Below, piece by piece: positions 9,100-35,376 of a DNA stretch of 64,000 bases. Below the pieces are notes generated by a model. The model was given only the letters and a program-made list of their open reading frames with translations. It was not told the DNA's origin and did no database searches. A program made the translations under genes and the position numbers. The stretch comes from Chloracidobacterium validum (GTDB taxonomy: Bacteria > Acidobacteriota > Blastocatellia > Chloracidobacteriales > Chloracidobacteriaceae), in the NCBI RefSeq assembly GCF_018304825.1, contig NZ_CP072649.1, positions 186,001-250,000 of the forward strand, given 5' to 3'. Each line of letters opens with the position of its first letter. The first letter of the stretch is position 1.

Positions 9100-9702
9100 G
9101 TGAAGCCGAAGTCTAAAGCCGTTGAACCTGAAGCACTTGAGCTGAAGCGGCGGGTGGGTGAGAACCTGGAGTTGCTACGCCGCCAGCGTGGGTTGAGTCT
9201 TGAGCGCCTGGCGGCGCGGGCGGGGGTGAGTCGGGCCATGCTCGGACAGATTGAAGCTGGCGACAGCGCCCCCACGATAGCCGTGCTCTGGAAGGTCGCC
9301 CGTGGATTGGGCGTTCGGTTTGCCGACTTGCTTGGCGATGAGCCGGGGCAGTCCGTTGTGGTGTTGCCCCAGGCGGCGGCCAAGGTGTTGCGTTCCCAGG
9401 ACGGGCGGTTTGAGAGCCGCGCCTTGTTTCCGTTTGATCGGGAGCGGCGGGCGGAGTTTTACGAGCTGCGGTTGAAGGTGGGCTGCATCGAGGCGGCGGA
9501 GCCGCATGCCGAAGGCACGTACGAAAACTTGGTGGTGCAGAACGGATGTCTGTTGCTGACGGTTGGTGACGGGTCGCCCATTGAGTTACTGGCTGGCGAT
9601 GCGGTCTATTTTCGGGCTGACGTACCGCACACCTATGCCAACCCAGGCAATACCGAGACGCTAATCTACTTGGTCATGACCTATGCCAGTCCACGCTTGT
9701 AG
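9100..9702 (+). CDS. XRE-family transcriptional regulator with C-terminal cupin
   Basis: 200 aa beginning with GTG. Residues about 15-75 form a Cro/C1-type helix-turn-helix (ELLRRQRGLSLERLAARAGV, then SRAMLGQIEAG). Residues about 110-195 form a cupin barrel with EPHAEGTYENLVV and AGDAVYFRADVPHTYAN, the usual small-molecule pocket of the SutR/PuuR type. Such proteins are mostly local repressors of metabolic or stress genes. The ligand is unknown. It stands alone, diverging from the suf regulator. Confidence 0.85.
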   Translation: MKPKSKAVEPEALELKRRVGENLELLRRQRGLSLERLAARAGVSRAMLGQIEAGDSAPTIAVLWKVARGLGVRFADLLGDEPGQSVVVLPQAAAKVLRSQDGRFESRALFPFDRERRAEFYELRLKVGCIEAAEPHAEGTYENLVVQNGCLLLTVGDGSPIELLAGDAVYFRADVPHTYANPGNTETLIYLVMTYASPRL

Positions 9703-9787
9703 TGGGCGGTCTTTCTTGTAGGGCGGCAGCGTCATAATTCTCAAGGCAGGGTCTAACTCTTAACCAGCCCTTTTTTCTCAATCAGCA

Positions 9788-9822
9788 CTTTTTCCGCTTG
9801 AAAAAAGCGGCTCTGTTGAAGC
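9788..9822 (-). repeat. inverted, diverged copy of the CRISPR repeat (anti-repeat)
   Basis: On the plus strand this 35-nt stretch reads CTTTTTCCGCTTGAAAAAAG and ends TGTTGAAGC. That is the reverse complement of the array repeat as it appears on the plus strand. It differs by one missing A in the A-run and three substitutions near the 3' side, i.e. 32 of 36 positions by hand alignment. It is therefore opposite in orientation to all 84 array repeats. In a minus-strand precursor RNA it would be complementary to the repeats. It may be a relic of an inverted array or a functional anti-repeat. Confidence 0.75.
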
Positions 9823-10072
9823 CTCGCACCGTCGTCATCGAAGTTGGTGAACGTCGTTGAAGGCTATGGTTCTTTATCTTGCGAAGCGGTTTGTCGGGAG
9901 CAGCGGAAAGCCCTGCCCTTCGCGTCGGGTGGGCCTGCGTGTTTGAGACTTGGCCTGAGGTAGTCAGTGAATAGTTATCTGTGTTGCGCTTTCAGTTACC
10001 GGCATTCCTGTCTAGTGTCCAGGGCTAGGTATGGGGTGAGAACTACAAACTGTAATCAACCTAACAAGCAAT

Positions 10073-10116
10073 GCCTCAACGGAACTGCGAAGTCACTTTT
10101 TTCAGGCGGAAAAAAG
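10073..10116 (-). repeat. degenerate terminal CRISPR repeat
   Basis: The stretch begins GCCTCAACGG and ends GGCGGAAAAAAG, matching both ends of the array repeat but with extra bases and changes in the middle. It is followed by a 34-nt spacer-like segment (10117-10150) before the first recognisable repeat. This is what decay at the leader-distal end is expected to look like. Confidence 0.6.
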
Positions 10117-10150
10117 AACACTGCTCACTGAAGACTGAACACTACTCACC

Positions 10151-13100
10151 GCTTCAATGGAAGCCGCTTTCTTTCAAGTGGAAAAAGCTCTCTCTGCTCA
10201 CTCCTCGCCTCTATCTCTTCCCAGCTTCAATGGAGCCGCTTTCTTTCAAGTGGAAAAAGCTCTCTCTGCTCACTCCTCGCCTCTATCTCTTCCCAGCTTC
10301 AATGGAGCCGCTTTCTTTCAAGTGGAAAAAGCTCTCTCTGCTCACTCCTCGCCTCTATCTCTTCCCAGCTTCAATGGGGCCGCTTTTTTTCAAGCGGAAA
10401 AAGGTGGCCGCGCCGGACGGCTCGGTAGTGAGTCTGCCCGCGCTTCAATGGGGCCGCTTTTTTTCAAGCGGAAAAAGCTGGCGCTCGTACACGGCGGTGG
10501 AGCGGATAGAGCGAGCTTCAATGGGGCCGCTTTTTTTCAAGCGGAAAAAGCTGCTGCCGCGCGGCGTCAAACACCGCGTCAACCTCGCTTCAATGGGGCC
10601 GCTTTTTTTCAAGCGGAAAAAGGCGTCACCTACCGGCGCGTGGGTTGGTCACGCGCACGCTTCAATGGGGCCGCTTTTTTTCAAGCGGAAAAAGGTGGCC
10701 GCGCCGGACGGCTCGGTAGTGAGTCTGCCCGCGCTTCAATGGGGCCGCTTTTTTTCAAGCGGAAAAAGCACAGTCTGGCGGCGGATGGGGCGTTGAGATT
10801 CGCTGCTTCAATGGGGCCGCTTTTTTTCAAGCGGAAAAAGGCGTTCAATCACGGCGCGGTGGGCGTCGCGGCTGAGGCTTCAATGGGGCCGCTTTTTTTC
10901 AAGCGGAAAAAGCCACACCTCGCACGCGCCGACCAGGTCGCCCAGCCGGGCTTCAATGGGGCCGCTTTTTTTCAAGCGGAAAAAGGTGAGTGTGGTCATT
11001 TTTTGCCTCCTGTAGTGAATTTGCTTCAATGGGGCCGCTTTTTTTCAAGCGGAAAAAGACCCATGCATCGGGCACTTCGGGAATGTCCACGACACGCTTC
11101 AATGGGGCCGCTTTTTTTCAAGCGGAAAAAGAGAGACAGCCGCGGGTAGCTGCTCATTTTGTTTTCCGCTTCAATGGGGCCGCTTTTTTTCAAGCGGAAA
11201 AAGCTTCATGAGCGTGGACACTCAGGTGAGATCAGAGCGCTTCAATGGGGCCGCTTTTTTTCAAGCGAAAAAAGCTGGGTCCGCTTCCCGGCTTGGGACT
11301 TGAGTGCCGAAAGCTTCAATGGGGCCGCTTTTTTTCAAGCGGAAAAAGTTGATTGGGTTTCAACTCAAGCGGCTCGACTGAAAGCTTCAATGGGGCCGCT
11401 TTTTTTCAAGCGGAAAAAGCGGCGCCCGCCAGGCGAAACGCTTCGCCGACGTCCCGCTTCAATGGGGCCGCTTTTTTTCAAGCGGAAAAAGTGCTATATT
11501 CAAAGCAGAATGAATGAGAAAAAAAGGCTTCAATGGGGCCGCTTTTTTTCAAGCGGAAAAAGCCTGAAGGTCGGGGCTGGGGGCAAGGATGTCCTGCTGC
11601 TTCAATGGGGCCGCTTTTTTTCAAGCGGAAAAAGCGCGCCCGCCTGCGCCAATCGTCGTCAGCGTACCGGGCTTCAATGGGGCCGCTTTTTTTCAAGCGG
11701 AAAAAGGCGACGGACTACCAGGTGGTGTGTTTTGCCGCGCCAGCTTCAATGGGGCCGCTTTTTTTCAAGCGGAAAAAGGTCTCCGCGGGCAACCCCAACC
11801 GATGGTGAATGAGGTGGCTTCAATGGGGCCGCTTTTTTTCAAGCGGAAAAAGCTCGTGGAGAACAATATCCCGTTCTTCGAGCTGCGTGGCTTCAATGGG
11901 GCCGCTTTTTTTCAAGCGGAAAAAGTGAGCGCCATCTGAGGTTTTGGGAGGTGGGCGACGGCTTCAATGGGGCCGCTTTTTTTCAAGCGGAAAAAGCCGG
12001 CTGTCTGATAGAGGCTGCGCGCGGCTGGGTTGCTTCAATGGGGCCGCTTTTTTTCAAGCGGAAAAAGCCAATCCAAAGCCGCCTGGGCGACCCAACCCGG
12101 CCCGGCTTCAATGGGGCCGCTTTTTTTCAAGCGGAAAAAGAAAAGCTGGCTTCCCATTGTTGCGCCAGCTCTGACCGGCTTCAATGGGGCCGCTTTTTTT
12201 CAAGCGGAAAAAGCATCCTCCGCCTCGAGGAACTCTATACCGGCAAGGGCTTCAATGGGGCCGCTTTTTTTCAAGCGGAAAAAGGCGCCCAGCTCACCCA
12301 GACCCTTACCGCCGACAAATCGCTTCAATGGGGCCGCTTTTTTTCAAGCGGAAAAAGCTTTTCCCGCTCAGCCTCCGGCGCCGGTGGACGCCAGCTTCAA
12401 TGGGGCCGCTTTTTTTCAAGCGGAAAAAGGTCGTTGCGGTAGCCATAGGGCGGCGGGGGCTGACCGCTTCAATGGGGCCGCTTTTTTTCAAGCGGAAAAA
12501 GGCCAACGTCGTCGTCGTCGCCGTCCAGGACCACCCACGCTTCAATGGGGCCGCTTTTTTTCAAGCGGAAAAAGCCGGAGCCCCCGCCGACTGGTTGAAA
12601 CTCCGATCAGCTTCAATGGGGCCGCTTTTTTTCAAGCGGAAAAAGCAGGCTTTGGATGACGGCTGGGAGCAGGGCGGTGGGCTTCAATGGGGCCGCTTTT
12701 TTTCAAGCGGAAAAAGAAGCTGGGTAGCAATTGGGGCGGCGCTGTCTGATTGCTTCAATGGGGCCGCTTTTTTTCAAGCGGAAAAAGTGCCTGGCTTGCC
12801 GGATGAGATGAAAAAACTTCCGGGCTTCAATGGGGCCGCTTTTTTTCAAGCGGAAAAAGCTTCATTCCAATCGCCGCCGGACATAACCTAGCATCTGCTT
12901 CAATGGGGCCGCTTTTTTTCAAGCGGAAAAAGACTTCACGAAGAAAAAATAACGCTTGACAACCTGCGGCTTCAATGGGGCCGCTTTTTTTCAAGCGGAA
13001 AAAGCACAAATGAGCAGTAAGCCGACCGCCGTCCCAATGACGCTTCAATGGGGCCGCTTTTTTTCAAGCGGAAAAAGCTCGCCTGGAAGATGCGTTTCAA

Positions 13101-16100
13101 AACGGGTCATTTGCTTCAATGGGGCCGCTTTTTTTCAAGCGGAAAAAGGGACACCTTCACCACAAACTGCAATAAACGCTCTTCCGCTTCAATGGGGCCG
13201 CTTTTTTTCAAGCGGAAAAAGATCGTAACCGCCGGCGCATAACGCTCCTGCCCAGTGTGGCTTCAATGGGGCCGCTTTTTTTCAAGCGGAAAAAGATTGG
13301 GATGACTGTATCGGACGGCCCAATCGTACCGGGCTTCAATGGGGCCGCTTTTTTTCAAGCGGAAAAAGTGACCCGTAAGGGGGGACCCCGCTACCATCCC
13401 ATGGGGGCTTCAATGGGGCCGCTTTTTTTCAAGCGGAAAAAGGGCGCGCAAATCAAACGTCAATACCAGTATCTGAAGCTTCAATGGGGCCGCTTTTTTT
13501 CAAGCGGAAAAAGCTAGTGGAGTGGACGCTGGGGATGCGCGACCTAATCGCTTCAATGGGGCCGCTTTTTTTCAAGCGGAAAAAGTAGCTTACCGTCGGC
13601 GATGAGCTCGTCAGGGGGGAGCTTCAATGGGGCCGCTTTTTTTCAAGCGGAAAAAGGCCAAGCGGCTCGGTAGGTAGAATATCAGCTTGAAGGGGCTTCA
13701 ATGGGGCCGCTTTTTTTCAAGCGGAAAAAGCCGGCAGGGGATCGTAACCCGCCGCCAGGTCATGGAAGCTTCAATGGGGCCGCTTTTTTTCAAGCGGAAA
13801 AAGGGCCTCAAGGACTTGAGCCAACTCATCAACAGCCCGCTTCAATGGGGCCGCTTTTTTTCAAGCGGAAAAAGCTGGATACGACGCCGCGCGCGTGGGC
13901 GAGCGGCACTGCTTCAATGGGGCCGCTTTTTTTCAAGCGGAAAAAGATGAGCGGCTGGCCAAGCAGGTTGGACTTTCATTTTTGCTTCAATGGGGCCGCT
14001 TTTTTTCAAGCGGAAAAAGCGCCCTCTGCCACCTCCTTGCCACGCATGAGAATTTTGCTTCAATGGGGCCGCTTTTTTTCAAGCGGAAAAAGCCGTCTGC
14101 CAGACACCGCCGCCAAGCGGAAGGCATGTGCTTCAATGGGGCCGCTTTTTTTCAAGCGGAAAAAGCTCACCTATGGCGGTGGTCTCACGGCGGCCAAGAC
14201 GGCTTCAATGGGGCCGCTTTTTTTCAAGCGGAAAAAGTTGATCTTTGGCAAGGGCTTTCACCAGCCCGGCCTGCTTCAATGGGGCCGCTTTTTTTCAAGC
14301 GGAAAAAGCCACCCCATCACCTGGCTTATAGTCGTCTGACTGGCGACGCTTCAATGGGGCCGCTTTTTTTCAAGCGGAAAAAGCCAGAAACATCCTCTCC
14401 GACGAAGCCATCACCAGGGCTTCAATGGGGCCGCTTTTTTTCAAGCGGAAAAAGCTTTCTGGCCTACTACACCCAGGATGAAGCACAGATCGCTTCAATG
14501 GGGCCGCTTTTTTTCAAGCGGAAAAAGTCGCCACCGATGGACACCGCCTGTCCATCATGGAGTAGCTTCAATGGGGCCGCTTTTTTTCAAGCGGAAAAAG
14601 GGGCGGCGCAGGTCCAGGCGCTTGCGGCCCACAAGGCGCTTCAATGGGGCCGCTTTTTTTCAAGCGGAAAAAGCCCCCAGTAGGGAATCCCGGCCAGGTG
14701 CTCATGGGCGCTTCAATGGGGCCGCTTTTTTTCAAGCGGAAAAAGCGAATGTGACGGTGCGGCGCCGGGAACGCATCACCTGGCTTCAATGGGGCCGCTT
14801 TTTTTCAAGCGGAAAAAGAAGCCGAGTGGTTGGTCATCAGCGTGTTTATCAGGAAGCTTCAATGGGGCCGCTTTTTTTCAAGCGGAAAAAGCTTGGCAAG
14901 GAAAAAAAAACGGAACAGTATAACAGAGCTTCAATGGGGCCGCTTTTTTTCAAGCGGAAAAAGACCTTTAGAGTAAATTGAATTGTGTAGTAATTATAAG
15001 CTTCAATGGGGCCGCTTTTTTTCAAGCGGAAAAAGGCGGATAGCACTTTCTGGCACCAGCACACTCACCAGCTTCAATGGGGCCGCTTTTTTTCAAGCGG
15101 AAAAAGCTCCTTAGCCGCAACGTTGAAACCCATACCCGTTTAGCTTCAATGGGGCCGCTTTTTTTCAAGCGGAAAAAGGTCTGGTGCCGACGCCGATTCG
15201 CCGTGACCTGACCGCTTCAATGGGGCCGCTTTTTTTCAAGCGGAAAAAGATGACAGAGGGGAGCCGGCCGCCGCCATCACCCCACTGCTTCAATGGGGCC
15301 GCTTTTTTTCAAGCGGAAAAAGCTTTCTGGACGCCATCGCGGACGGACCGGTGAAAATGCTTCAATGGGGCCGCTTTTTTTCAAGCGGAAAAAGCACCAG
15401 CCCCGGCACCGAGGCCAGCTCACTGCCAGAGCTTCAATGGGGCCGCTTTTTTTCAAGCGGAAAAAGGAAACTGATCCTGTCGGCGGCAACGTCGGAATAC
15501 GGTGCTTCAATGGGGCCGCTTTTTTTCAAGCGGAAAAAGCCAGTCACCGACCACCGGTAGGTCGCCAGCCTGACCGCTTCAATGGGGCCGCTTTTTTTCA
15601 AGCGGAAAAAGGACCAAGGGTGTCACGCTCCTCCATCCACAGCAACCGCTTCAATGGGGCCGCTTTTTTTCAAGCGGAAAAAGGGTTCCAGAGTCCGTAG
15701 CCAAGCGGCGTCCGTCTAAGCTTCAATGGGGCCGCTTTTTTTCAAGCGGAAAAAGCTCAGGCCGGGGAGCTGTCCCTGGTCGAGCTGCTCAAGGCTTCAA
15801 TGGGGCCGCTTTTTTTCAAGCGGAAAAAGTGGAATTGGCTAGCTCCAACTGACTCCGCCGAAAGACGCTTCAATGGGGCCGCTTTTTTTCAAGCGGAAAA
15901 AGTCGCCAAGGCGTTCCACCTGGTCAGCCCCCGCGCCGCTTCAATGGGGCCGCTTTTTTTCAAGCGGAAAAAGTTGCCAACCTCATCCAAACCATGGGCG
16001 TCCAACCCCGCTTCAATGGGGCCGCTTTTTTTCAAGCGGAAAAAGCCTCCAACCGCCGCAGAAGGCGATGGATGTAGCGATACGGCTTCAATGGGGCCGC

Positions 16101-16191
16101 TTTTTTTCAAGCGGAAAAAGAATAGGCCCGGTGGGCATGCGTCTCCAGGTAATTTGCTTCAATGGGGCCGCTTTTTTTCAAGCGGAAAAAG
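10151..16191 (-). CRISPR. type I-G CRISPR array, 84 repeats and 83 spacers
   Basis: I counted 84 copies of a 36-nt repeat that starts GCTTCAATGG and ends CAAGCGGAAAAAG on the plus strand, with a mean period of about 72.4 nt (spacers roughly 34-38 nt). Read on the minus strand the repeat ends ATTGAAGC, the usual 3' repeat end, and contains a CCGCTT/AAGCGG stem. Transcription is therefore minus, the same as the cas operon, with the leader at the high-coordinate end. The three most distal repeats (10151, 10224, 10296) carry shared substitutions (CTTTC, AAGTGG). The repeat at 11239 also has a changed 3' end (AAGCGAAAAAAG). Spacers 1-3 from the distal end are identical, and the spacers at 10404 and 10695 are identical. 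Confidence 0.98.
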
Positions 16192-16387
16192 TCCGTTCGC
16201 CCAACGTCCGTGTTTTCAAGTAGCTGCAGACCGTTTTGCGAGCGGTTGCAAAACCATGCCCAAAACAAGTCCGATACGTCAAGCCAGTTTTTGTAACAGG
16301 CTGATTCATAAAAGCTTCATGCCTGCGAGCGGCTCCCGGCAAAAGACGCATCACCCCACCGCTCGCACCCCTTCCAACCCCGAACCA
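16192..16387 (-). promoter_or_regulatory. CRISPR leader
   Basis: 196 bp between the newest repeat and the end of cas2, with no gene. Position, orientation of the repeats and intact repeats on this side identify it as the leader. It contains an inverted repeat GTTTTGC (16233-16239) and GCAAAAC (16248-16254) spaced by 8 nt, 42 bp from the first repeat. That could be an integration-complex or host-factor site. No confident promoter hexamers were found. Confidence 0.65.
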
Positions 16388-16684
16388 CTACACAACAACG
16401 GTGATCCGCTCGCTCGAGTTCGGTGCAAGTGGCTTGCCCAGCGCCTCAATACAAGCCTTGCCGCGCCCGTCCGCCGGGCCAATATCGACCACCATCACGC
16501 GGTCTTCACGCTGATTCATCACTTCCGTCAGAGCCATGATCATCAGCATTCGCTCACTCGGTGACAGATCACAGCAAAAAACCGAATACTGAACCGCATC
16601 GCCAAAGCCGCGCATAATACGGTACACCTGACGCCATCGCTTTTGATTGGCAATGTCATAGCAAACAACATAGCGGTTACGCAT
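16388..16684 (-). CDS. cas2: CRISPR-associated endoribonuclease-fold protein Cas2
   Basis: 98 aa, standard size. It opens with RNRYVVCYDIAN, the first beta strand with the conserved Asp of the ferredoxin-like Cas2 fold, followed by RWRQVYRIMRGFGDAVQYSVF, split here as RWRQVYRIMRGFG and DAVQYSVF. It dimerises between Cas1 dimers in the spacer-integration complex. The ATG follows AGAGGG. It lies 177 bp after the cas4-cas1 stop, the only sizeable gap in the cas operon, and directly precedes the leader. Confidence 0.95.
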   Translation of the reverse strand: MRNRYVVCYDIANQKRWRQVYRIMRGFGDAVQYSVFCCDLSPSERMLMIMALTEVMNQREDRVMVVDIGPADGRGKACIEALGKPLAPNSSERITVVV

Positions 16685-16861: not shown

Positions 16862-18607
16862 TCAGCGCGTAACAAACGGAATGTAGCGTGGAATTTCCCC
16901 GGTAAGCGTTCGGGCCAAAAGCCGTGCCTGAATTTCAAATACCCGGCGATAACTCACTTGATAACCAAAGACCGGATGTGTCACCAGTTGGTCAAGCCGC
17001 CGCTCAAAAGCCTCAATGAACACCTTTCGCGCGCGTGGAAGAAGCGCCACAGCTTCACCCCGCTGGAGGAAGTCATCCGGGCCAATCTCGCCGTTGTTGA
17101 TAACGGTGATAACGACTGAGTCCGCCACCAAGGGACGAAACTCTTCCATCAAATCCAGCGCGAGCGCCGGGCGTCCATAACGTGGTTGATGATAAAAGCC
17201 AAGGTAGGGGTCAAACCCAACCCCCAACACGGCCACCACCATTTCCTTGACCAACAAACTGTAGCCAAATGAAAGCAGGGCGTTGATGGGGTCTTTGGGC
17301 GGACGACGGTTGCGGCCCGTGAAGTCAAATGGCGGCGCGTCATCCGGCGGCAACTTGAACATCGTCGAAAAATACCGGAAGTACTCGCGCGCGGCGCTGC
17401 CTTCCACCCCCAATAGCTCCGCCAAGCTGGTGCCCCGCTCGACGAGGTCGCGCAACGCCACCAACTGGGAAAGCGCTTCCGGGGGCAGGCGGCGTCCATT
17501 CCGCCGAAGCAGCAAACGGCTGTTGCGAATTTTTCCTCCAACCAACGCCTTGGCCAGCTTCAAGCAAAACGCTGGGTCCGCGGCAGCTTGAAACTGACGG
17601 CAGCGTAACTCGATGTTTTTGTGAGGCGGTGGAGCGGTCACCGCCTGAAGCCATCCACCGTAACTCAGGTGCAGAATGGGAATCTCCTGGCTGGCCAACG
17701 CGCGCAGCGCCTGGGCGGAAAGCTGAACGTTGCCAAAGATATTGAGCTGACTGACCTCAAACAAACGCACGGCGTCCACCGCTTGTCCCTTGTCGCGGAT
17801 CTCAAGCGTGGCACCCCTCAGCCCAAGTGTGTAACCTTGCCCCTGGACATACACCGCCTTGTTGTCGTCCCGTGCCGGAAACAAGCGCCGGATTTCACGC
17901 CGCGCAGGCGCTACGTCAGGCGCAACCGACCCCGCCTTGTCCGACCCATGAGCCGTCTCTGCCGTCGGTCGGCTACCAGTTACCTGCTGAACGTGGTTGA
18001 GCTCGTCCGGCAAACAAATGCCAACCAGTGAACAGCGCGGGCACTTGTTTGAGTTGACCAACGGCGGCGGCAAGCTGCCGGCTACCGCCAACGCGCGCGC
18101 GTCGGCCAAAAGCTGCTTCGTCCGCGTGACCAGCGCCGGTGTAAACTCAACCCGGACGCGCGTTTTGTCACCCACGTAATAAATGACGCCATAGTTGGAG
18201 ACGTAACCGTTGGCGCGCAGCAAGAGACCCTGCAAGCAAACCTGGATGCGTTCCGGTTCCCACGCTCCCTCCGGCAAGTCCGGCGCGCTGCCTTTTTTAT
18301 AGTCCACCGGCACAAGCTGCCCATCGTCACTTTCAAGCACGTCAATGACGGCAACCGCGCCGAGTTCTTCCGAACCAATTTCGACCGACCGCGCATGAAT
18401 CGCCACTTCAGCCGTGACGGCTTCAGCCCGAGGTACGCGCCCGGCTGCCTGGTCAACCCGGCGGTGAACGTAGCGCCCCTGAAGCACATCCAGGTTGGTT
18501 GCCCATTCGCGCTGAACATACTCCAGGTAAAATAGACGCGGGCAATAGACATATTCGTTGAGCATGCGCGCCGGGATGAGTTCAGGTGTCGTTGCCAAAG
18601 CATCCAT
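16862..18607 (-). CDS. cas4-cas1: Cas4-Cas1 fusion, spacer selection and integration
   Basis: 581 aa from the ATG at 18607, which sits 8 nt after a strong GGAGGT; an in-frame TTG 21 nt upstream is less likely. Residues about 10-210 are Cas4: YCPRLFYLEYVQ at the N-terminus and KCPRCSLVGICLPDE give the four Fe-S cysteines, with PVDYKKGS as the nuclease motif. A linker of about 50 residues follows. From about 250 the Cas1 integrase begins (YVQGQGYTLGLRG), with the helical domain containing AAREYFRYF, GFYHQPRYG and LALDLMEEFRP, which provide the metal-binding Glu, His and Glu. The fusion is diagnostic of type I-G (I-U) and links PAM trimming to integration. Confidence 0.95.
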   Translation of the reverse strand: MDALATTPELIPARMLNEYVYCPRLFYLEYVQREWATNLDVLQGRYVHRRVDQAAGRVPRAEAVTAEVAIHARSVEIGSEELGAVAVIDVLESDDGQLVPVDYKKGSAPDLPEGAWEPERIQVCLQGLLLRANGYVSNYGVIYYVGDKTRVRVEFTPALVTRTKQLLADARALAVAGSLPPPLVNSNKCPRCSLVGICLPDELNHVQQVTGSRPTAETAHGSDKAGSVAPDVAPARREIRRLFPARDDNKAVYVQGQGYTLGLRGATLEIRDKGQAVDAVRLFEVSQLNIFGNVQLSAQALRALASQEIPILHLSYGGWLQAVTAPPPHKNIELRCRQFQAAADPAFCLKLAKALVGGKIRNSRLLLRRNGRRLPPEALSQLVALRDLVERGTSLAELLGVEGSAAREYFRYFSTMFKLPPDDAPPFDFTGRNRRPPKDPINALLSFGYSLLVKEMVVAVLGVGFDPYLGFYHQPRYGRPALALDLMEEFRPLVADSVVITVINNGEIGPDDFLQRGEAVALLPRARKVFIEAFERRLDQLVTHPVFGYQVSYRRVFEIQARLLARTLTGEIPRYIPFVTR

Positions 18608-18637
18608 AGCCAGGACCTCCAAAACCAATCGGATGGC

Positions 18638-19546
18638 TCACACAACCTTGCGGGCCGGTGTGAAGTTGGGTGTTTTCTTGACCAGAATCCGTTGGACGCG
18701 GTAAGCCGCCACCACGCCCATCTGACGCAGCCGCCGTCGGTCAGCTTCGGCAATTGGGTCGTCCTGCAACGGCGCCAGAGCCAGTAACGACGGAATAAGG
18801 TCGGCCGGGACAAAGGGCGTCCAGATGGGCCACGTCCAGCGGGTTTCGTCCTTGCCGAAGCCGCTAAAGCCAAGCGTTTTGAGCGCGCCGCCAACGGGCC
18901 AGGTCGGAAACCACCCCAGCGCCTCTAGTGCCAGCCGATTCGCGCCGAGCATCCCACCCCGCTTGCGGCGATTGGGGTCCCCAGATGGCTTGTTCCATTG
19001 GTAGGCATGGCGGCGATCTTCCGACGGGTCAAGGTGCAGCGATTGATTCTCAAGTGGGTCGGCATAATCCCACGGCTTGAAAAGCGTTCGGCGCAGGTGG
19101 TCGCGCTGGGTGTTCTTCAAAATAGAAACGATGTTGCCAAGGTGATAATCCCGGCGCGTGGTTTGAAGTTGACTGGTCGCCTCGTCTGACGCGAGGTTGC
19201 TTCCAATCGCCGCCAGGAAATCCACTTCCTGCCGCTGAAACCGTGTCGCCGCACGGCGAACAGACACAAATTTTTCCTTCTGCGCTTCGTAGAGCTTCGC
19301 CGGATGGGCCGCCAGTGCCTTGACCAACGCGCGGTCAAGCCCATCAAGCAAGCCCTGTTGGTCAAGCACTGCCGAGCTGCGGAGCTTGGCAACCCACCCG
19401 CCATCGTCGGTTGTCCAGGCCAGTTCGATGTCGGACGTTTCTGCCTGATGGCGCAGCACGTTGACCAGCCCCAGCGCCGCCAGAAACCCAAGTGGCGTCA
19501 TGCCATCGAGTCCGCGTAAAACCAGCTCGCGCAATCCCTGCGTCAT
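18638..19546 (-). CDS. type I-G Cas8-like effector subunit (Csb3/Cas8u2 candidate)
   Basis: 302 aa. It lies where type I-U/I-G operons carry their Cas8-type gene, overlapping cas3 by 4 nt and ending 30 bp before cas4-cas1. The N-terminal LRGLDGMTPLGFLAALGLV block and the later GMLGANRLALEALGWFPTWP segment match my memory of the short I-U subunits named Csb3 or Cas8u2. It would take the large-subunit role in Cascade (PAM recognition, Cas3 recruitment). The family name is a context-weighted guess; no catalytic motif is expected. At 302 aa it is small for a Cas8. Confidence 0.65.
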   Translation of the reverse strand: MTQGLRELVLRGLDGMTPLGFLAALGLVNVLRHQAETSDIELAWTTDDGGWVAKLRSSAVLDQQGLLDGLDRALVKALAAHPAKLYEAQKEKFVSVRRAATRFQRQEVDFLAAIGSNLASDEATSQLQTTRRDYHLGNIVSILKNTQRDHLRRTLFKPWDYADPLENQSLHLDPSEDRRHAYQWNKPSGDPNRRKRGGMLGANRLALEALGWFPTWPVGGALKTLGFSGFGKDETRWTWPIWTPFVPADLIPSLLALAPLQDDPIAEADRRRLRQMGVVAAYRVQRILVKKTPNFTPARKVV

Positions 19547-22500
19547 GTGTCACCTCCGGTCGCATAGAACGTTTGTGGTTGGGAAGTCAGCCCGGCCTCT
19601 TCATCAGCGCTGGCCTGCTGGTCGGCCAAACGGAGCACCGCCTCCAAATAGGCCGCGCCCCACCAGCCATAGCGGCGTTGCATGCGCCAGAAGCGCGCAC
19701 CGATGCCTGAGTCCAGTCGGTGCGGCGCCCGGTCTGCCCGCTGCCGCCCCGTGAGCCGGACGGCATAGGTCTGGTCAAGTAGCGTGGCCGTGAAATCAAT
19801 ATCGGTCGCCTCCAAATCCACGACCACCGGCGCAAAGGGACGGCCGCGGCCATGGTGCGTCCCGACCAAGTACAGCACGAGGTCACGTTCTTCGGCGTTG
19901 AAGGGGAGCGCCGGCTGGGCCGCTTCCAGCATCGTCACCGACAGCATCTCATGCCGAAAGCCCGAAGGCAGACCAGCCCGCTCCCGTGCTTGCTGCCGTT
20001 CATAAGGTGTCAGCGGAAACCCGTCAGATTTAGCCAACAACCTCTGCGGGGAGGCATCCAGAAGCCAGACTTCAGTGCAATCGGCCCGGCGCAGCAACGC
20101 CTGAAACCGTTCATCCGCCTTGCCCCAGTCATGTCCTTCCGCTGCCGCTAACAGAACGTCTTGCCGAATCGTCAGAGGCAACGCCTGAATCGTCCGCCGG
20201 ATTTCCTCCCGGACATCCCGACTGTGGTCGGCCAGCGTCACCGGCTCGGCACAAGTGACGTAGGACCGTTCATCCTCACCCTCATCTATCAGCGGGGTTG
20301 CCCAGTCCACAGCCGCGCCCAACCGCTTGCGCGTCACCAAAACGTAGCCGCGCCGGTCAGGATAAGGTTCGCGCAGGAGTCCAAGCTCGGGAGTTGCCAA
20401 CCGGCGCAGGTTGTCTATCAACCGCGCAAACTGCTCGCGCTCGGAGTGTTGCTCAACCTCATCGGCAAGCTCGCGCAGGGCCGCACGCCAGTCATCCAGG
20501 TTGAGCGTTGCTTCGGGGTCGGCCATGTGCTCAAACAGCGCTTTCAGGGTTGGTGTCTCAAGGCGGCCGTCGAAAAGGGCCGGATGCAGTCGCACAACAG
20601 CCCGGTCGCGGGCCGGACGGGCCGCTTCCTCGGCAACATCGGGCAAGGCGCCCGGCGGCAGATGGCCCAGCGCTTCCCAACCACCGACTTCAACGGGCAA
20701 AACAACGGTGTCGCCCGGCTGTATGTCATCTACGGCAACAAGCCGGCGATGCTCCTCCAGTCCGCGCCAGAGCAAGCCACGCCGTTCCGGTAGAAGGCTT
20801 TTGGGCCGGTCGTCAGCCGCTTCGCCAACCCCCAACAGGTCGCTGACATCGTCCTTCTTCCGATCCTCTCCAGTCAGCCACCGCCGCAAGCGCGACATCG
20901 GGACGGTCATGCATTCGGCGGCCGTCGGCGGAAGCAAGCTCACGACTTCACCCCAAGCTTCGGGCGAAAAGGCGCTGAGATCGGCGCGCCAGCAAACTTG
21001 CGCATCCGGTTCACCGGGCTGCGAGCCGTGAAGAAAGAGCGCAACCTGCGGGTCAAGCGATGGCCGCGGACTGGTCTGAACCAGCACGTCGAGGTATGCC
21101 GGAAGCAACGCGGCCGCGTCACGTCGCGCTGACGGGCCCAGGCAAGCCGCCGGCAGCCGGCCGTTTGCTCCATGAGCCGCCAAGAGGCCGTCAAAAGCCT
21201 CAATGCCGAAATCCACAACATTGTTGACAGCAACCTGTTGCAGCCACGCCCACGTCTGACCGAGAGCCTCGCCGTAAATCGGATCAGCCTGCTTGGCTTC
21301 GAGCGATTTTTCATCCATGAGGATGACCGCCTGGGCCTGAATCGGGCGTCCGCGCCGGTTGAGACGCCCCATGCGCTGGCGGAGCGCGTCAAGCGCCGCG
21401 CACTCGGTGATGAGCACGTCAACGTCGTAGTCCGCGCCGACTTCAAGGCACTGGGTTGAAACCACGATGCTCAACTCGGCGCTGTGGTCGGGACGGTCGG
21501 ACCCAATGCGTGCGCTGAGTCGCGCCTGCTGGGCGTCGCGGTCAATCGGCCGCATCGCCCCAATGACGAGTTCCACGCTGGCGTTCGGGAATGCCTTGTG
21601 CAGCGCCTCGTGAACGGCCTTCGCCGTGGCTACGCGATTGACCATGACCCCAATGGCGCATCCACCTGGAGCACCCTCGCCAAAGAGCGGAAACTGCGCG
21701 TCCGGGCAAGCGCCGGTCCTGATCTGGTCGGCCAGTGTCTGAACCTCAGTGACGATGGCCTTCACGATGTCCGGCACGCGCACCAGTCGCGCCGGCTTGG
21801 TCGCCTTGAGTATCTGCTTCAGCCGCGGCGTAGCGCGGTCTTCCGAGTCGAGTTGAAAGCTCTGGGCAGCGCCTACCACTGGAGTGGCGGTCATCGAAAC
21901 CACCACCAGCGGCCGCACGCCGATGTCCCGTTCCGCCCACTGCGCTGGGTCAAGATAATCGCGGACAGCCTGCAAGGTTTGGAGAAACGGACGGCTGATG
22001 TGAGCTTCGTCGAGCAGTACGAGACTGTCATAGGCAGCCAGTCCAGCTTGAATCGGCGCCGCCCCGGCCGAGACACCGTAGCCGCGAAACAACAGCCGTG
22101 ACCCAAACTGGTCAACAGTCGTGCAGACGATGAGCGGTTGGGTCGCCGACCGCGCCCACCGGTTGTCACGGTACAGACCGCCGCGTAGTTCAAGCACGTC
22201 GAGCGGTGGCGCACTTTCCGGCCGCAGCGTTGAAATCGCGCGCAATGCAGCCGCCACCCTGGCCAGGGTTGGATAACGCTGTGGGGACTGTTCGGCCGCG
22301 AGAAGGCTTTGCGCCAAGCGCAGCGCGCGCCGGTAAGCCTCATCCACGATGACGCGCCGGTTGACGCAAAAAAAGAAGCGCCGTGGGGCGGTGCGCTTGT
22401 TCGGTTCACAGTCTGCTTGACAGGCCAGGGCAAACACCCCGATGTCGAGCGTTGCCGTCTTGCCGCTACCAGTCGGCAAATCAATAACCTCAGGCCAGTT

Positions 22501-22605
22501 CCCGGCCACGACTTGCGCTGCCAGCCGACGCTGCCAAGGGTAGGGAGCGGTCGCATGAACTTCACGGAAAAAAGCTTCAAAGTCATCTATCGTAACGCGC
22601 GTCAT
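19543..22605 (-). CDS. cas3: CRISPR helicase-nuclease Cas3 with C-terminal HD domain
   Basis: 1020 aa from the ATG at 22605 (MTRVTIDDFEAF), 4 nt after the csb2 stop; the longer frame upstream overlaps csb2 and was rejected. Helicase first: Walker A PTGSGKT at residues 44-50, DEAH at about 199-202, QRMGRLNRRGR as motif VI. The HD nuclease is at the C-terminus: LADHSRDVREEI and AAEGHDWGKADERF, with the His-Asp pair at about 825-826. Helicase-then-HD order is the type I-G arrangement, opposite to most Cas3. It unwinds and degrades target DNA after Cascade binding. Coupled with both neighbours by close spacing or overlap. Confidence 0.94.
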   Translation of the reverse strand: MTRVTIDDFEAFFREVHATAPYPWQRRLAAQVVAGNWPEVIDLPTGSGKTATLDIGVFALACQADCEPNKRTAPRRFFFCVNRRVIVDEAYRRALRLAQSLLAAEQSPQRYPTLARVAAALRAISTLRPESAPPLDVLELRGGLYRDNRWARSATQPLIVCTTVDQFGSRLLFRGYGVSAGAAPIQAGLAAYDSLVLLDEAHISRPFLQTLQAVRDYLDPAQWAERDIGVRPLVVVSMTATPVVGAAQSFQLDSEDRATPRLKQILKATKPARLVRVPDIVKAIVTEVQTLADQIRTGACPDAQFPLFGEGAPGGCAIGVMVNRVATAKAVHEALHKAFPNASVELVIGAMRPIDRDAQQARLSARIGSDRPDHSAELSIVVSTQCLEVGADYDVDVLITECAALDALRQRMGRLNRRGRPIQAQAVILMDEKSLEAKQADPIYGEALGQTWAWLQQVAVNNVVDFGIEAFDGLLAAHGANGRLPAACLGPSARRDAAALLPAYLDVLVQTSPRPSLDPQVALFLHGSQPGEPDAQVCWRADLSAFSPEAWGEVVSLLPPTAAECMTVPMSRLRRWLTGEDRKKDDVSDLLGVGEAADDRPKSLLPERRGLLWRGLEEHRRLVAVDDIQPGDTVVLPVEVGGWEALGHLPPGALPDVAEEAARPARDRAVVRLHPALFDGRLETPTLKALFEHMADPEATLNLDDWRAALRELADEVEQHSEREQFARLIDNLRRLATPELGLLREPYPDRRGYVLVTRKRLGAAVDWATPLIDEGEDERSYVTCAEPVTLADHSRDVREEIRRTIQALPLTIRQDVLLAAAEGHDWGKADERFQALLRRADCTEVWLLDASPQRLLAKSDGFPLTPYERQQARERAGLPSGFRHEMLSVTMLEAAQPALPFNAEERDLVLYLVGTHHGRGRPFAPVVVDLEATDIDFTATLLDQTYAVRLTGRQRADRAPHRLDSGIGARFWRMQRRYGWWGAAYLEAVLRLADQQASADEEAGLTSQPQTFYATGGDT

Positions 22606-22609
22606 AGAA

Positions 22610-24181
22610 CTAACTCCGTGGATGACGAGGCTTGAGCGGTTTGAACAGCCCGTAGCCAAAAAAGCGTCCGGCGCCGAGCAAGACGGGGCCGACAACTGGC
22701 TCGGCAAATTGCAGAAACACGTGAAGCTGGGGCTTGGGCGCCGTCGCGCCCTTGACCAGATAGGGCGGAAAGCCGCCACCGAACTTGGCCTGCGCCGGGC
22801 GCGGCAAGGTCTGTCCGCGCAGTGGACGTTCCTTGGCAACGGCGCGCGGCGCGCCCACATGCCAGCTCGTCGGGTCGAAATCAATCACGACCGGTTCCGG
22901 CAATCCGGCACGGCGACAGGCGGTAAACAGCAGTTGACCGACTTCGGCTTCCCAAGCGGCCCGCTCCAGTAACCGGTTGGCTTTGGGGAAGCGGTCAAGG
23001 ACGACCGGCGTCACGCTGGCCCAGCAGATCGCTCCCTCTGGAAAGGCCGTCCAGGTTTCCGGGCGGAGTGTGGCGCGGGTGTCATCCCAGGCACGCTTGC
23101 GGAGGACCCAAACGCCGAGCCGTCCGAGCTTGAGCTGGATGGCGGCCGGTTGTCCCCGCGCGTCGAGGATGGACGGGCGCAGGATGGCACCCCGTTTGGG
23201 ACGGGGGATGTCCGGCGGAAAGGCCAGCGCGACGCCGAGCAGCCGACCGTCGGCATGTTCGTAGCCGACAAAGGGCAGTGGCAGGAATGCCAGGTGTCCA
23301 CGCCCATCGGCCAGTGGTTGGCCGTCAGCCTCGTGACCGCTGAGCCACGCCGGAGGCGGTTGCTGCGGAGAGCCTCGCATCAAGGTCGCCCGCAGGGCTT
23401 GCGTCACCTGAAGCGCAGCTTCAACCGGCAGGCTAGGGCCATCGGTCTGGGCCAACACAAACAAGTCCTGATCAAAGGCCGTCGCCTTCAAGGCCGTCAT
23501 TGCCGCTCTGGGGTTATCCCGCTGCGGCCGATAGCCGGTTGCCAACCCGATGGTCGGATGGCGTCCCGCTGCAAAAGCTTCACGCAAGCGTTCCAGCGAA
23601 GAAGCCTCATGCAGCCGGCGCAGTTGATGGTCGGCCAACCAGTCCTCGGTGTCCGTTTCAGGCAACCAACACACAAAGCCGGCTTCAGGCGTGGGGGGCG
23701 CGTCAGCCACCCACATCTGGACAAGCGAAGCAGAATGTCCCAAGCGCGTGACCTTGGCACAAAGCTGCGCCAGCGCCGGCCGGTGGGCTTCTGCGCCGGG
23801 AGCGTCGGGCCAGTGCAGGTAACACGGCGCATCGCCGACCCATACGGTTGGGAAGGTGCGTGGTTGTTTGCTTCGGGTGAGGGGAGCCGATTGCAGTTGG
23901 CCCGTGCCTTCAGGCCGGTCATTGACTGGGACATAGACGGTCGTTGTGCGCCGCCGGCTGCCACCCGTTGCCGGCAACCAAAGCGCCGGGTCGGGAAGTG
24001 AAGCCAACCACACCAACGCCTCGCCTTCAGCCGGGTTCGCCCCGGTTTCAAAAAAGGTGGCCGCCAGCGCCAGCCAGACGCGCGCTGGATGCGGCGGCCA
24101 CTCAGGCGCGTTGCGCGTCGCCGGATCGGTGGCGCGCGCGTAGCCGGTCAGGTACCGCCAGGCAAGCGTCAACATTGTCAT
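22610..24181 (-). CDS. csb2: Csb2, Cas5-Cas6-type fusion subunit of type I-G Cascade
   Basis: 523 aa. The start MLTLAWRYLTGYARATDP and the following WPPHPARVWLALAATFFETG segment are characteristic of Csb2 (GSU0054-like). The N-terminal half is Cas5-like. The C-terminal half ends HVFLQFAEPVVGPVLLGAGRFFGYGLFKP, whose glycine-rich GAGRFFGYGLF part is the Cas6/RAMP G-loop. It should process pre-crRNA at the repeat stem and stay bound to the crRNA. It overlaps csb1 by 4 nt and is followed 4 nt later by cas3. Confidence 0.9.
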   Translation of the reverse strand: MTMLTLAWRYLTGYARATDPATRNAPEWPPHPARVWLALAATFFETGANPAEGEALVWLASLPDPALWLPATGGSRRRTTTVYVPVNDRPEGTGQLQSAPLTRSKQPRTFPTVWVGDAPCYLHWPDAPGAEAHRPALAQLCAKVTRLGHSASLVQMWVADAPPTPEAGFVCWLPETDTEDWLADHQLRRLHEASSLERLREAFAAGRHPTIGLATGYRPQRDNPRAAMTALKATAFDQDLFVLAQTDGPSLPVEAALQVTQALRATLMRGSPQQPPPAWLSGHEADGQPLADGRGHLAFLPLPFVGYEHADGRLLGVALAFPPDIPRPKRGAILRPSILDARGQPAAIQLKLGRLGVWVLRKRAWDDTRATLRPETWTAFPEGAICWASVTPVVLDRFPKANRLLERAAWEAEVGQLLFTACRRAGLPEPVVIDFDPTSWHVGAPRAVAKERPLRGQTLPRPAQAKFGGGFPPYLVKGATAPKPQLHVFLQFAEPVVGPVLLGAGRFFGYGLFKPLKPRHPRS

Positions 24182-25509
24182 TCGTCTCCTTCATTGGTCT
24201 TGCTTTTCGCCAAGTGTTGGCTCTTGACCACCAGCTTCACGAGGTCGTCGGACGGGGTGAGCCGGAGTGGTTGGTCAAGCCACGGAAGCCCAAGCTTCTT
24301 GGCCTCTGTGACGGCTGCGTTGAACAGGTCAACGGCTGCCTCGGCGCTCAGGGACAGGTCAGCCTCGATGTGGCCCGGCTTGCCGAGGATTTCCCAGCGC
24401 AGCGGTTCGGTTGGCCAGAGCAGGCAGCGGGAACGCAGGTCAAGACCGGCTTCGGCCGCGAGGACTGCCGCGCATAAGCCCAGGGCAGCCAAGACCGTCT
24501 GGGCCGCGGCGTCCACGTGGTCGTCGTGCCGGCCGTTGAGTGGAAAACGCAAACGCCGCAGCGCCGGCAGTGACAAGACAATGGTCTGCTCGGCAACCTC
24601 AATCGTGACGCCGCCACCGAGGTAAGCGCCGTCCCGATCGCGCTTGGAAATGGATGGCGTAACGTTGCCATGGTTGGCCTCCGACGGTCGCCCGTCTTCT
24701 CCGAGTTTTGCCGGGCCCTTTTCTTCCTTGCCGGTCTTTGACTTGTTCGTTTTGATGACGGCTTTTTCGGGGGTGAGCGTCCAGCCGAACGGGGCATCCT
24801 CCGGTGTTTTGTACAGCGGGCCGGCCTTGAGCTGGATGCCCAGCGGATCGATCCGGCTGCTGGTCTTGGCGCCCAGGACGGCATTGATCCCGATGATTTC
24901 GCTGACCAGAGCGCGCTCGACCTTGGCCCCCAGCCCGCCTTTCGGGCCGGTCGAATCCCACATGCCAAACAGCAGCGCCGTCGGGCACAGCTCAAACAGC
25001 GGCGTGGCGTTCCTTGCCGAAGCTTCCCGCAGGCGTTTTCCGTAGGTGGATTCGTGCTTGGGGTTGGCCGAGCGAAACGCCTTTTGGCTTCCGTTTTCGT
25101 CAACGAGGCTATCGCGCAAGATGGCATCCACGATGCGGTGCGGCGCTTGGAGCGAGGACACCTTGCCAATCGGCTCAATCAAACGCAGGTTTTCCGCCAA
25201 GTCGGTGCCCGGGAAATAGCGTGTAAAGTCCACTTCGATGATCGGCAGTGTCAGCCGATTACGATCAACCGCCTGTTGCAGGGCATCCTCCATGCGATTG
25301 GCCTGCGACTGGACGGAATCCAGAAGGACACACCGCACCGGGTTGGCATCGTTGGGCAGTCGCCGTTCCTCGATGGCGTAGAGTCCACCCTCGTAGGTTG
25401 GGGGAAACACTTTCGTTCCCCTTCCGCCGGCCGGCTGGAGTTCGAGCCGGCAGCGAAAAGCCGTTGCGTTTTGGACGACTTGTTGGAGTTTTTCGAGTGA
25501 CAGCGTCAT
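24178..25509 (-). CDS. csb1: Csb1, Cas7-type backbone subunit of type I-G Cascade
   Basis: 443 aa from the ATG at 25509, preceded by GAGGAG at 8 nt; the longer frame to 25545 lacks such a site. Family blocks of Csb1/GSU0053 include the N-terminal LEKLQQVVQNATAFRCRLEL, then CVLLDSVQSQANRMEDAL and FGMWDSTGPKGG. Several copies would form the helical backbone along the crRNA spacer. It is the first gene of the operon, so the cas promoter should lie in 25510-25965, among tandem repeats. Confidence 0.92.
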   Translation of the reverse strand: MTLSLEKLQQVVQNATAFRCRLELQPAGGRGTKVFPPTYEGGLYAIEERRLPNDANPVRCVLLDSVQSQANRMEDALQQAVDRNRLTLPIIEVDFTRYFPGTDLAENLRLIEPIGKVSSLQAPHRIVDAILRDSLVDENGSQKAFRSANPKHESTYGKRLREASARNATPLFELCPTALLFGMWDSTGPKGGLGAKVERALVSEIIGINAVLGAKTSSRIDPLGIQLKAGPLYKTPEDAPFGWTLTPEKAVIKTNKSKTGKEEKGPAKLGEDGRPSEANHGNVTPSISKRDRDGAYLGGGVTIEVAEQTIVLSLPALRRLRFPLNGRHDDHVDAAAQTVLAALGLCAAVLAAEAGLDLRSRCLLWPTEPLRWEILGKPGHIEADLSLSAEAAVDLFNAAVTEAKKLGLPWLDQPLRLTPSDDLVKLVVKSQHLAKSKTNEGDE

Positions 25510-25570
25510 GATGGTTACTCCTCGATGAAATTGGTTTCTTGCCAACCGACCGGGTGTGCGCAGGTAGTGG

Positions 25571-25857
25571 GCCGTGTCGGCATCGGTAGCAGACTACGCC
25601 ACTTCGGACGCCATTGCCGGGCTCGCAAGCTTGCGGCGGAAAGGAATGAATGTTCTGTCCGCCAGGGCCACGCCTACCGGTCATGTGTCACAGGCATTCC
25701 TGCCTGTGGCGTGCCGTGTCGGCATCAGTAGCAGGCTACGCCACTTCAGACGCCATTGCCGGGCTTGCAAGCTTGCGGCAGAAAGGAATGAATGTTCTGT
25801 CCGCCAGGGCCACGCCTACCGGTCATGTGTCACAGGCATTCCTGCCTGTGGCGTGCC
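25571..25857. repeat. tandem duplication, two copies with 142-bp period
   Basis: The segment starting GCCGTGTCGGCATC at 25571 is repeated from 25713 with only a few substitutions, ending around 25857. Each copy ends with the palindrome ACAGGCATTCCTGCCTGT (25690-25707 and 25832-25849). The whole intergenic stretch 25510-25965 has no convincing gene. It lies directly upstream of the cas operon, whose promoter must be nearby, perhaps in 25510-25570. Confidence 0.9.
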
Positions 25858-25965
25858 GAACCGCGCTTTGTGGCTTTCTAGGCGGTCAGGCGCAGTGCCG
25901 CTCAAGAGGCAGTTTTGATGCGTTGGTGGATGCCGGCCGCGGGATGACCAGCGAAGCCATCGCGT

Positions 25966-26448
25966 CTAGGGGCGTTCCAGCGCAGCGGCCGAAAGTGTCG
26001 TCGCGCTGACAAGCGTCCCGCGACAGCGCGGAGACCCACACCGGCAGGGATAATCGCGTCGCCAGGTTTCCAGGTCGCCGTCCGCGACTTGCAGGTGGTA
26101 GTCCATCGTCAGTTCCGCGCCCGGCTGGATGTCGGTGATGGCTTCGATGAAGATACGCCCATCGGCTTCCTGGACGCTTTCACAGTTTGGTTCGCAGGCG
26201 TGATTGATGTAGCGCGCGAGATTGCCAAAGCGCCCGCCATCCAAAAGTGTGTGCTCGTCAATCGTGAAAAGGAACGTGTGGGTCGTCTGCGCCAGCTTGC
26301 GCGCATACCGGCGATCAGCCTCTTCCCGGCTAATCCGCTCGCCTTTGTACTCGATGATGCGCGCGCGGGCCGGAATGCGCGTCAGCGCAAAGACACCCCA
26401 GCCATGAATGACTGACCGGCGCACTTCACAGAGGTGATGACGTTGCAT
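25966..26448 (-). CDS. SET-domain protein (protein lysine methyltransferase-like)
   Basis: 160 aa from the ATG at 26448 (MQRHHLCEVRRS); the frame is open further upstream but runs under the next gene. It is almost entirely a SET domain: GWGVFALTRIPARARIIEY, then GNLARYINHACEPNCES (the NH..C pseudoknot motif) and GAELTMDYH. A post-SET cysteine cluster YPCRCGSPRCRG follows and should bind zinc with the earlier Cys. Such bacterial proteins methylate lysines on proteins using S-adenosylmethionine. The target is unknown. Confidence 0.88.
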   Translation of the reverse strand: MQRHHLCEVRRSVIHGWGVFALTRIPARARIIEYKGERISREEADRRYARKLAQTTHTFLFTIDEHTLLDGGRFGNLARYINHACEPNCESVQEADGRIFIEAITDIQPGAELTMDYHLQVADGDLETWRRDYPCRCGSPRCRGTLVSATTLSAAALERP

Positions 26449-26503
26449 GGCGCGACCCAACCCAGGCCCGAAGTCGCTGGGGGTGACTGCTGTCCGCGGA
26501 CCC

Positions 26504-27178
26504 TCACGCCATCGGGACAGTCGAGGCCCCGCTTGGCTGCCAGCTAATCCGAAACCGACATTCTGGCGCGCCCTCGCGGCGACAACTGGTGACGGTAACG
26601 TCAGGATTGATGCCCCCACAGAGTTCGACGGCGCGGGTAAAGTAGCCAATGCCGGATTGGCAATACTGCGATGGCGGCGGCGTATCGTAAGCGAGGCAAA
26701 CCGTCCCAGAGCGACGCGGTCCAGTTCGACTTTCCGGCTCATAGCGCGCGCTGCCAAAGGTCTGGAATGTTGGCGACACAACGGCTGAAAGCTGGAGAAA
26801 GCCGTCCACGTCGCGGTGAACGAGGCTTTCGTATGTGCCGCCAATGTTGAGTTCAGCCGAGAATGCGCCTAACGCTTCGAGGATGTTGGGCGTCATCTCG
26901 CCAAGGGCCGATGCAATGGCCGCGTCAAGCCGAACGAGGAGTCCGAGTTCATACCATTCGCCAACGAAAACCGTTTTGGTGAGTGTTGCGCGGTCACTCT
27001 CCGGGAGGTCCTGCAAGATGCGCTTGAGCGTTGCGATGCCATGTTTCATCTGCACGTAGAGCAAGCGTGACTTGATGAGGCTGCCCTGAACTTTCCAGTG
27101 GGTGATCGTGGAAAGCTGGGCCGCCCGCTCATCATTCGTAATGGTGCGGCAGCAGATTGGGCGTGACATTGTATCCAT
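26504..27178 (-). CDS. TIGR02265/DUF2378-like protein, function unknown
   Basis: 224 aa from the ATG at 27178, which has GGAG at 7 nt. The middle part (GSLIKSRLLYVQMKHG, LKRILQDLPESDR, WYELGLLVRLDAAIA) resembles the TIGR02265 family known from myxobacteria. The C-terminal TSCRREGAPECRFRISW recalls the end of V4R-type small-ligand domains. No catalytic motif is visible. It precedes the SET gene by 55 bp on the same strand, so they may be co-expressed. A regulatory or ligand-sensing role is a guess. Confidence 0.55.
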   Translation of the reverse strand: MDTMSRPICCRTITNDERAAQLSTITHWKVQGSLIKSRLLYVQMKHGIATLKRILQDLPESDRATLTKTVFVGEWYELGLLVRLDAAIASALGEMTPNILEALGAFSAELNIGGTYESLVHRDVDGFLQLSAVVSPTFQTFGSARYEPESRTGPRRSGTVCLAYDTPPPSQYCQSGIGYFTRAVELCGGINPDVTVTSCRREGAPECRFRISWQPSGASTVPMA

Positions 27179-27285
27179 GGAAAAACTCCACTGATTCGGG
27201 GCGGCCGTTGGGCGCACTGCCTAAAGCTGCGGAACAGGGAAACCGGGGGCGCAGGCTGTTCCGGGTCGGCGCTTGGGCTAACGGT

Positions 27286-28647: not shown

Positions 28648-29089
28648 GCGTGTGAGATACGGCGGACACTGAACGGTGCGCCAGGACAAAGGCCAGACAG
28701 CGTGCCCAGCCCGATTGGAACGTGGGTTTGCCCATCGCGCCGTAACCCTCGCTCGTTCAGGGACGGAGATGGCGGGCGCGGTTTTCCACCCAGCGAGCTG
28801 TCGCGGTTGCTCGATGCTCACCGTCAACCTAGAGTAGCCAACAAGCTAGAGTAGCCAACAAGAAACGTCAATCAGCCTTCAAGCGTCAGCCTTCAAGGTT
28901 GAACGCAAACCGGCCCCCGACCAGAGGCGGCCACGGCGCTCGGTTTGCCATTGGCCGCCTCAGATGGCGACGACTTCCAGCAAACATTGACCCAGTGCCG
29001 TCACATCCCTTATCCATGGTTGGCCAGCGATTCGTTCACGCTGGCGGCTGGGTACACCCCGCGATTCCTCGTCCCCACCGCAAAGACCT
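28648..29089. other. divergent intergenic region with a short tandem repeat
   Basis: 442 bp between dnaB and the plus-strand gene at 29090. It contains CTAGAGTAGCCAACAAG twice in tandem (28829-28845 and 28846-28862), then TCAGCCTTCAAG twice close by. No coding frame with a family signature is seen. It should hold the dnaB promoter. Confidence 0.5.
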
Positions 29090-29365: not shown

Positions 29366-29368
29366 TTC

Positions 29369-29926: not shown

Positions 29927-30004
29927 CCGCGCGGGCTGGTTCGCATCAAGCAAGTCTCCCAAGCGCAGCCCGAGCGCTTGGCACGGGCGTAAGGAGCAAC
30001 AGGA

Positions 30005-30760: not shown

Positions 30761-30785
30761 CCGCGCCAGGTAGTGTCATCCGGCG

Positions 30786-35367: not shown

Positions 35368-35376
35368 ACCACCAAG

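Follow-up and report, generated by a model that had tools for sequence, protein, structure and literature searches.

A solitary inverted repeat beyond the distal end of a type I-G CRISPR array in Chloracidobacterium validum, a probable relic of rearrangement

Beyond the distal end of a type I-G CRISPR array in Chloracidobacterium validum lies a single copy of the array repeat that points the opposite way, and the question raised by this locus is whether the copy serves the CRISPR system or is a leftover of past changes in the surrounding DNA. We analysed the copy within a window of 64,000 nucleotides (the whole stretch of DNA studied here, G000:C2:186001-250000, from a genome of 3.66 Mb on two contigs) and compared it with a genus collection that holds one genome per species, so that the congeners are other species with arrays at other places. 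In our reading the copy is probably a relic, that is, a flipped and decaying old terminal repeat that was stranded at a rearrangement joint and is now without a job, and we put the probability of this reading at roughly 0.7.

The locus combines csb1, csb2, cas3, cas8g, cas4-1 and cas2 with an array and thus belongs to type I-G (Table 1). With these six genes upstream of the array, the crRNA strand is the minus strand, as a sequence-only reading of this DNA had assumed. The sense consensus of the repeat is 36 nt long (CTTTTTCCGCTTGAAAAAAAGCGGCCCCATTGAAGC); 80 of the 84 repeats are identical to it and one carries a single change, while the last three differ by 3-4 edits. Between these degenerate distal repeats, three identical 36-nt spacers follow one another (10188-10367), and another spacer, of 38 nt, is also present twice (10404-10441 and 10695-10732). 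On the far side of the locus, about 12.5 kb (25546-38081) separate cas7 from the next conserved gene and are missing there in two congeners (G004 and G006). The same genome also holds a second csb2 homologue (G000:C1:2502710-2504191; L122, L123), with no CRISPR array of at least three repeats within 35 kb around it.

Table 1. Coordinates of the features at the array and its distal end, as positions in the window.
Feature	Position	Strand	Remark
HTH-cupin regulator gene	9100..9702	+	last conserved gene before the joint
trailer / synteny joint	9703..10072	.	GC 0.49-0.52 (HTH-cupin gene and cas genes: 0.62)
inverted ectopic CRISPR repeat	9788..9822	+	crRNA sense on +, inverted relative to the array; 4 edits from consensus
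85th repeat	~10073..10117	- (array sense)	badly degenerate, with an inserted stretch
type I-G CRISPR array, 84 repeats	10151..16191	-	repeats at up to 11 edits
three degenerate distal repeats	10151..10331	-	with the next repeat (10368), flank three identical spacers
leader	16192..16387	-	aligned with the leaders of five congeners
cas2	16388..16684	-	PADLOC Cas2g
cas4-cas1 fusion (cas4-1)	16862..18628	-	PADLOC Cas1g
cas8g	18638..19546	-	
cas3g (cas3)	19543..22884	-	
csb2, cas5-6 fusion	22610..24181	-	Cas56g
csb1 / cas7g	24178..25545	-	

An edit-distance scan of the window confirmed the arrangement that the sequence-only reading had described, with 84 repeats in one orientation and one copy in the other. 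The copy, 35 nt on the + strand (CTTTTTCCGCTTGAAAAAAGCGGCTCTGTTGAAGC), differs from the consensus by three substitutions and the loss of one A from the loop, and alignment with the consensus agrees with the earlier reading that both stem arms (CCGCTT and AAGCGG) are intact. Its distance of about 330 nt past the distal end also stands when counted to the 84th repeat (328 bases); the degenerate 85th repeat, 14 edits from the copy, lies in between. Apart from the copy, the window outside the array contains no repeat match of fewer than 12 edits in either orientation, and in six base-shuffled versions of the first 10 kb the best matches were at 11-14 edits. Searched at up to 3 mismatches, the copy occurs once in the 3.66-Mb genome, and the consensus finds 83 of the 84 array repeats and nothing besides. 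With no other match below 12 edits outside the array in the window and no second stray copy at up to 3 mismatches in the genome, a chance origin is excluded; the copy derives from the local repeat and, lying outside the array, is an ectopic degenerate repeat. Like the degenerate terminal and ectopic repeats known as trailer relics, it is mutated, solitary and situated at the end of a trailer; it differs from them in being inverted and in lying 328 nt from the array.

The substitutions of the copy carry some information on its history. Where 81 of the 84 array repeats read CCC, the copy reads CTC, and since this T is also present in the three distal repeats and in the repeats of three congeners (G001, G004 and G005), the copy probably predates the present consensus. 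Its edit distance is 4 from that consensus, from two of the distal repeats and from the repeat of G004, and 5 from the third distal repeat. The copy also shares a core, CTGTTGAA, with the last degenerate repeat of G001, but this has little weight as a sign of age because the last repeat of G005 is without it. Further, there are substitutions in the 3' part, which is well kept, and two of the changes affect CCATTGAAGC, a part mostly well kept among the surveyed repeats.

Five of the six other genomes of the genus have csb2 and arrays with related repeats, and the sixth (G002, 85% complete) gave neither csb2 nor a match to the array end. For each of the five array-bearing congeners, the stretches fetched around the arrays contained no full inverted copy at up to 10 edits. 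The sequence-only reading had named absence or free drift of the site in close relatives as what would refute its functional proposal, and absence is what we found beside the arrays of five of five array-bearing congeners, which are other species; like a relic, the copy is not conserved between these relatives. For a wider view, 72 presumed I-G arrays were gathered by simple repeat criteria. After removal of 31 with a distal flank below 150 nt and of four duplicates, 37 were kept, including two pairs that share one contig each (L088, L115), one array with a doubtful repeat (L165) and the window itself (L136); L001-L029, L125, L126 and L143-L158 had been left out beforehand. A full inverted copy is present in the distal flank of one of the 37 arrays, that of the window. 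Its inverted-match score is 27, followed by 14 for G076, 13 for G005 and 12 for two arrays, and the control with a reversed, uncomplemented pattern reached scores of up to 13. The match in G076 is half of a 14-bp, terminator-like hairpin. A separate survey of 1500-nt flanks at up to 11 edits, with 58 array rows of which those of L031 are artefacts of a cut-off 23-nt consensus, likewise found an inverted copy in the window alone. In the literature, none of the titles and abstract beginnings among the matches listed, which covered few subscription journals, describes a type I trailer that carries an inverted repeat.

The DNA around the copy points to a rearrangement. The HTH-cupin gene is present in all seven genus genomes, and the alignments of the congeners with this region end at its stop codon (9700-9703 in five of six, 9648 in the sixth). 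Taken alone this is a weak sign of a joint, which ordinary intergenic drift would match, and synteny speaks more strongly. In G001, the DNA some 1.5 kb beyond the HTH-cupin gene maps to G000:C2:435560-440854, 240 kb away, and the DNA near the distal array end of G006 maps to G000:C2:408963-414906. On the other side, DNA that in G004 and G006 lies beyond the cas genes corresponds to 38082-40484 of the window, past the 12.5 kb of extra DNA, and the G006 sequence next after this match maps back to about G000:C2:424,700. Additionally, a search of the seven genus genomes with 9823-10072 gave no homologue beyond chance level (best other E 0.05). Without such a homologue, and with its two neighbours apart in congeners, the trailer is one of the joints of a rearrangement, and the array block has moved relative to its neighbours. 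When the distal flanks were compared, those of G001, G004 and G005 matched one another, and those of G003, G006 and the window matched none. The order of events at the array block is not simple.

In the relic reading, the DNA at the distal array end would have been rearranged in such a way that the old terminal repeat was flipped and stranded, after which the inverted repeat would drift without function. The flip may have been the same kind of event as the joining of the array to the HTH-cupin gene, and any RNA made from the copy would presumably be without importance. The copy is repeat-derived and solitary, it is without a full counterpart beside congener arrays, and its neighbours are apart in congeners. 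Every test able to show constraint on it gave a negative or neutral result. The sequence-only reading had named a relic as the plain alternative, and with no full copy in the stretches fetched around congener arrays, no homologue of the trailer in the genus beyond chance level and substitutions in the 3' part this alternative fits best. The functional role that it had proposed did not find support, given the absence of a full copy beside the arrays of all five congeners and the substitutions in the well-kept 3' part. Against the relic reading stand the facts that no oppositely oriented array or leader relic was found beside the copy and that the old sites give background-level matches only, at 11 edits. 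In addition, the 85th repeat has decayed further than the copy, a possible hint that the copy is under constraint or arrived later. If the relic reading is true, the distal array end is a place of chromosome breakage and rejoining, and the copy is a warning that not every repeat copy close to a CRISPR array is an RNA gene.

Other origins were tried and rejected. That the copy is the remainder of an inverted second array is unlikely, as no leader-like sequence lies beside it (the best BLAST match to the window leader is 12 nt, E 0.057) and no further repeat in its orientation rises above shuffles in 9823-10072 or 9703-9787; a weak match in array sense at 9767-9781 has a score of 10, which was reached by 3 of 200 shuffles. 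For off-target spacer integration, a direct repeat of the 36-nt flanks was looked for without success (score 3, which all 200 of 200 shuffles also reached), and no exact flanking duplication of 3-9 nt was found. The trailer has no match to phage DNA that would speak for a phage origin. A search for an older ectopic repeat in the stretches fetched from congeners around their HTH-cupin gene gave background-level matches of 10-11 edits only. Finally, a gene fragment was rejected, since the short genus matches to parts of 9823-10072 all have E values of at least 0.05, and of nine such matching loci compared only two pairs are mutually related.

The copy is unusual, and functions as a crRNA-like RNA, a terminator or an anti-repeat RNA are possible but unsupported. 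In the first of these, a + strand RNA resembling CreA, CreR or Racr would present a hairpin that Csb2 binds and cuts, or that titrates Csb2, and the cut would leave an 8-nt handle, GUUGAAGC, with a guide from 9823 on. CreR is an ectopic repeat with a crRNA-like role, and the copy resembles CreA and CreR as a solitary repeat outside the array and near the cas genes with its hairpin kept; with the Racr solitary phage repeat units it has in common a solitary repeat with an intact stem. The handle of the copy is one base off AUUGAAGC, and two surveyed I-G repeats (L054 and L098) end in GTTGAAGC. Ectopic repeats with such roles are reported (PMC9458426; PMC8501985; PMC10651486), and in one I-G system that has been studied Csb2 by itself is reported to cut the repeat, 4 nt 3' of the hairpin, and to leave an 8-nt handle (PMC9638904). 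However, the copy differs from CreA and CreR in that there is no second repeat above shuffles in 9823-10072, no sigma-70-like site in 9400-10500 (0.3 expected by chance) and no target match better than chance. In the cas promoter region, the leader, the trailer and the cas operon, the guide matches no better than shuffled guides do, and a PAM-flanked partial match at a promoter, as in CreA/CreR, was not found with TTN, the I-G PAM reported for another species (PMC9638904). Genome-wide, sites with a TTN-flanked seed gave 0 exact and 26 one-mismatch matches, against 35 in the reversed control. The difference from Racr is that no sign of a mobile element was found: no phage DNA is similar to the trailer, and the 21-base core of the copy, a pattern that fits the copy and not the consensus with its longer loop, has no exact match in viral contigs. 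A crRNA-like role is unlikely.

Likewise improbable, in our assessment, is that the copy acts on the array strand as a terminator of the trailer, ending the pre-crRNA some 330 nt beyond the array. On this strand it reads GGCUUCAACAGAGCC GC UUUUUU, which is intrinsic-terminator-like, and it is the sole terminator-like minus-strand site in the scan from the array end to 9400. Trailers can carry such sites, as in an I-G array of G076 (L171) the last repeat is followed at a distance of about 50 nt by a strong hairpin and a T-run. However, the T6 at the copy goes with a hairpin of only -4.6 kcal/mol, compared with -18.5 kcal/mol in G076, and has a competitor in the stem CCGCUU/AAGCGG. The presumed ancestral form of the copy, which we constructed, folds at -6.2 kcal/mol, so that the substitutions would have weakened the terminator-like hairpin. 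Folds of the copy with short flanks do not exceed shuffles in stability (z -0.24 and -1.13). The scan of 9400-10500 on both strands gave 12 sites, against 2.0 in shuffles, and half of the 12 are antisense array repeats. The T-run at the copy arises because the antisense of the repeat holds a run of T. Throughout the array (10151-16191), the antisense of each consensus repeat on the + strand forms a weak hairpin (-2.1 kcal/mol) just ahead of T7, so that anti-array transcription would encounter a terminator-like site at almost all repeats. The site in G076 (L171 10790-10840; -18.5 kcal/mol and a T-run) is itself likely the pre-crRNA terminator of an I-G array.

Less probable still is an anti-repeat RNA, in which base-pairing between the trailer portion of the pre-crRNA and the last repeats would shield or regulate those repeats. 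The complementarity on which the sequence-only reading built this idea holds if the pre-crRNA runs through, and the fold of the trailer RNA that it had suggested came out as expected: in the minimum-energy fold of 9703-10187, calculated without a shuffle control, the copy pairs with the 84th repeat. The duplex of the copy with the consensus repeat reaches -45.7 kcal/mol. However, such pairing is unspecific, as any inverted copy would do likewise, and the mismatches weaken the duplex from the -65.5 kcal/mol of a perfect one. Two of the changes lie in the mostly well-kept CCATTGAAGC, and no full copy was found beside the arrays of the five congeners or in 36 of the 37 surveyed arrays. The copy resembles the anti-repeat of the type II tracrRNA insofar as, once transcribed, it would show complementarity to the repeats. 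A tracrRNA-type anti-repeat, however, serves crRNA maturation in systems that lack a Cas6-type enzyme, and this type I-G locus has csb2, a Cas5-6 fusion, whose product is reported to cut the repeat by itself in one I-G system (PMC9638904).

A related inverted piece is found in one congener. In G005, local alignment revealed an exact 13-nt inverted stub, GCTTCAATGGAGC, 9 nt beyond the terminal repeat, and thus a second array end in the genus has collected an inverted piece. What sets it apart from the controls of the 37-array survey is not its score but its position beside the terminal repeat. Stub and terminal repeat form a near-perfect, strong hairpin (L031 9100-9165, minus strand; z -4.45 against shuffles of a 106-nt stretch). 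The flank of G001 is about 90% identical to that of the stub, and its bases no longer form the hairpin. Beside the stub and the window copy five of six bases agree and none beyond, which is too little to prove a common origin. The stub is the sole result that keeps a functional reading open, as inverted pieces could be kept for a reason; that the copy and the stub are a kept cap for very long arrays, folding back on the terminal repeat of the pre-crRNA to end or shield the transcript, is nevertheless highly unlikely. To our knowledge, the ending of transcripts from very long type I arrays is poorly known, and a cap or a terminator, if true, would show how it comes about.

One more change at a congener array concerns the array as a whole. 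On a contig of G004 (G004:C29; L037 10605-11563), where the array runs off the contig and its distal end is outside view, we found a second copy of the cas2 end, leader and array that is 87% identical over 784 aligned positions; arrays of this genus thus do get duplicated.
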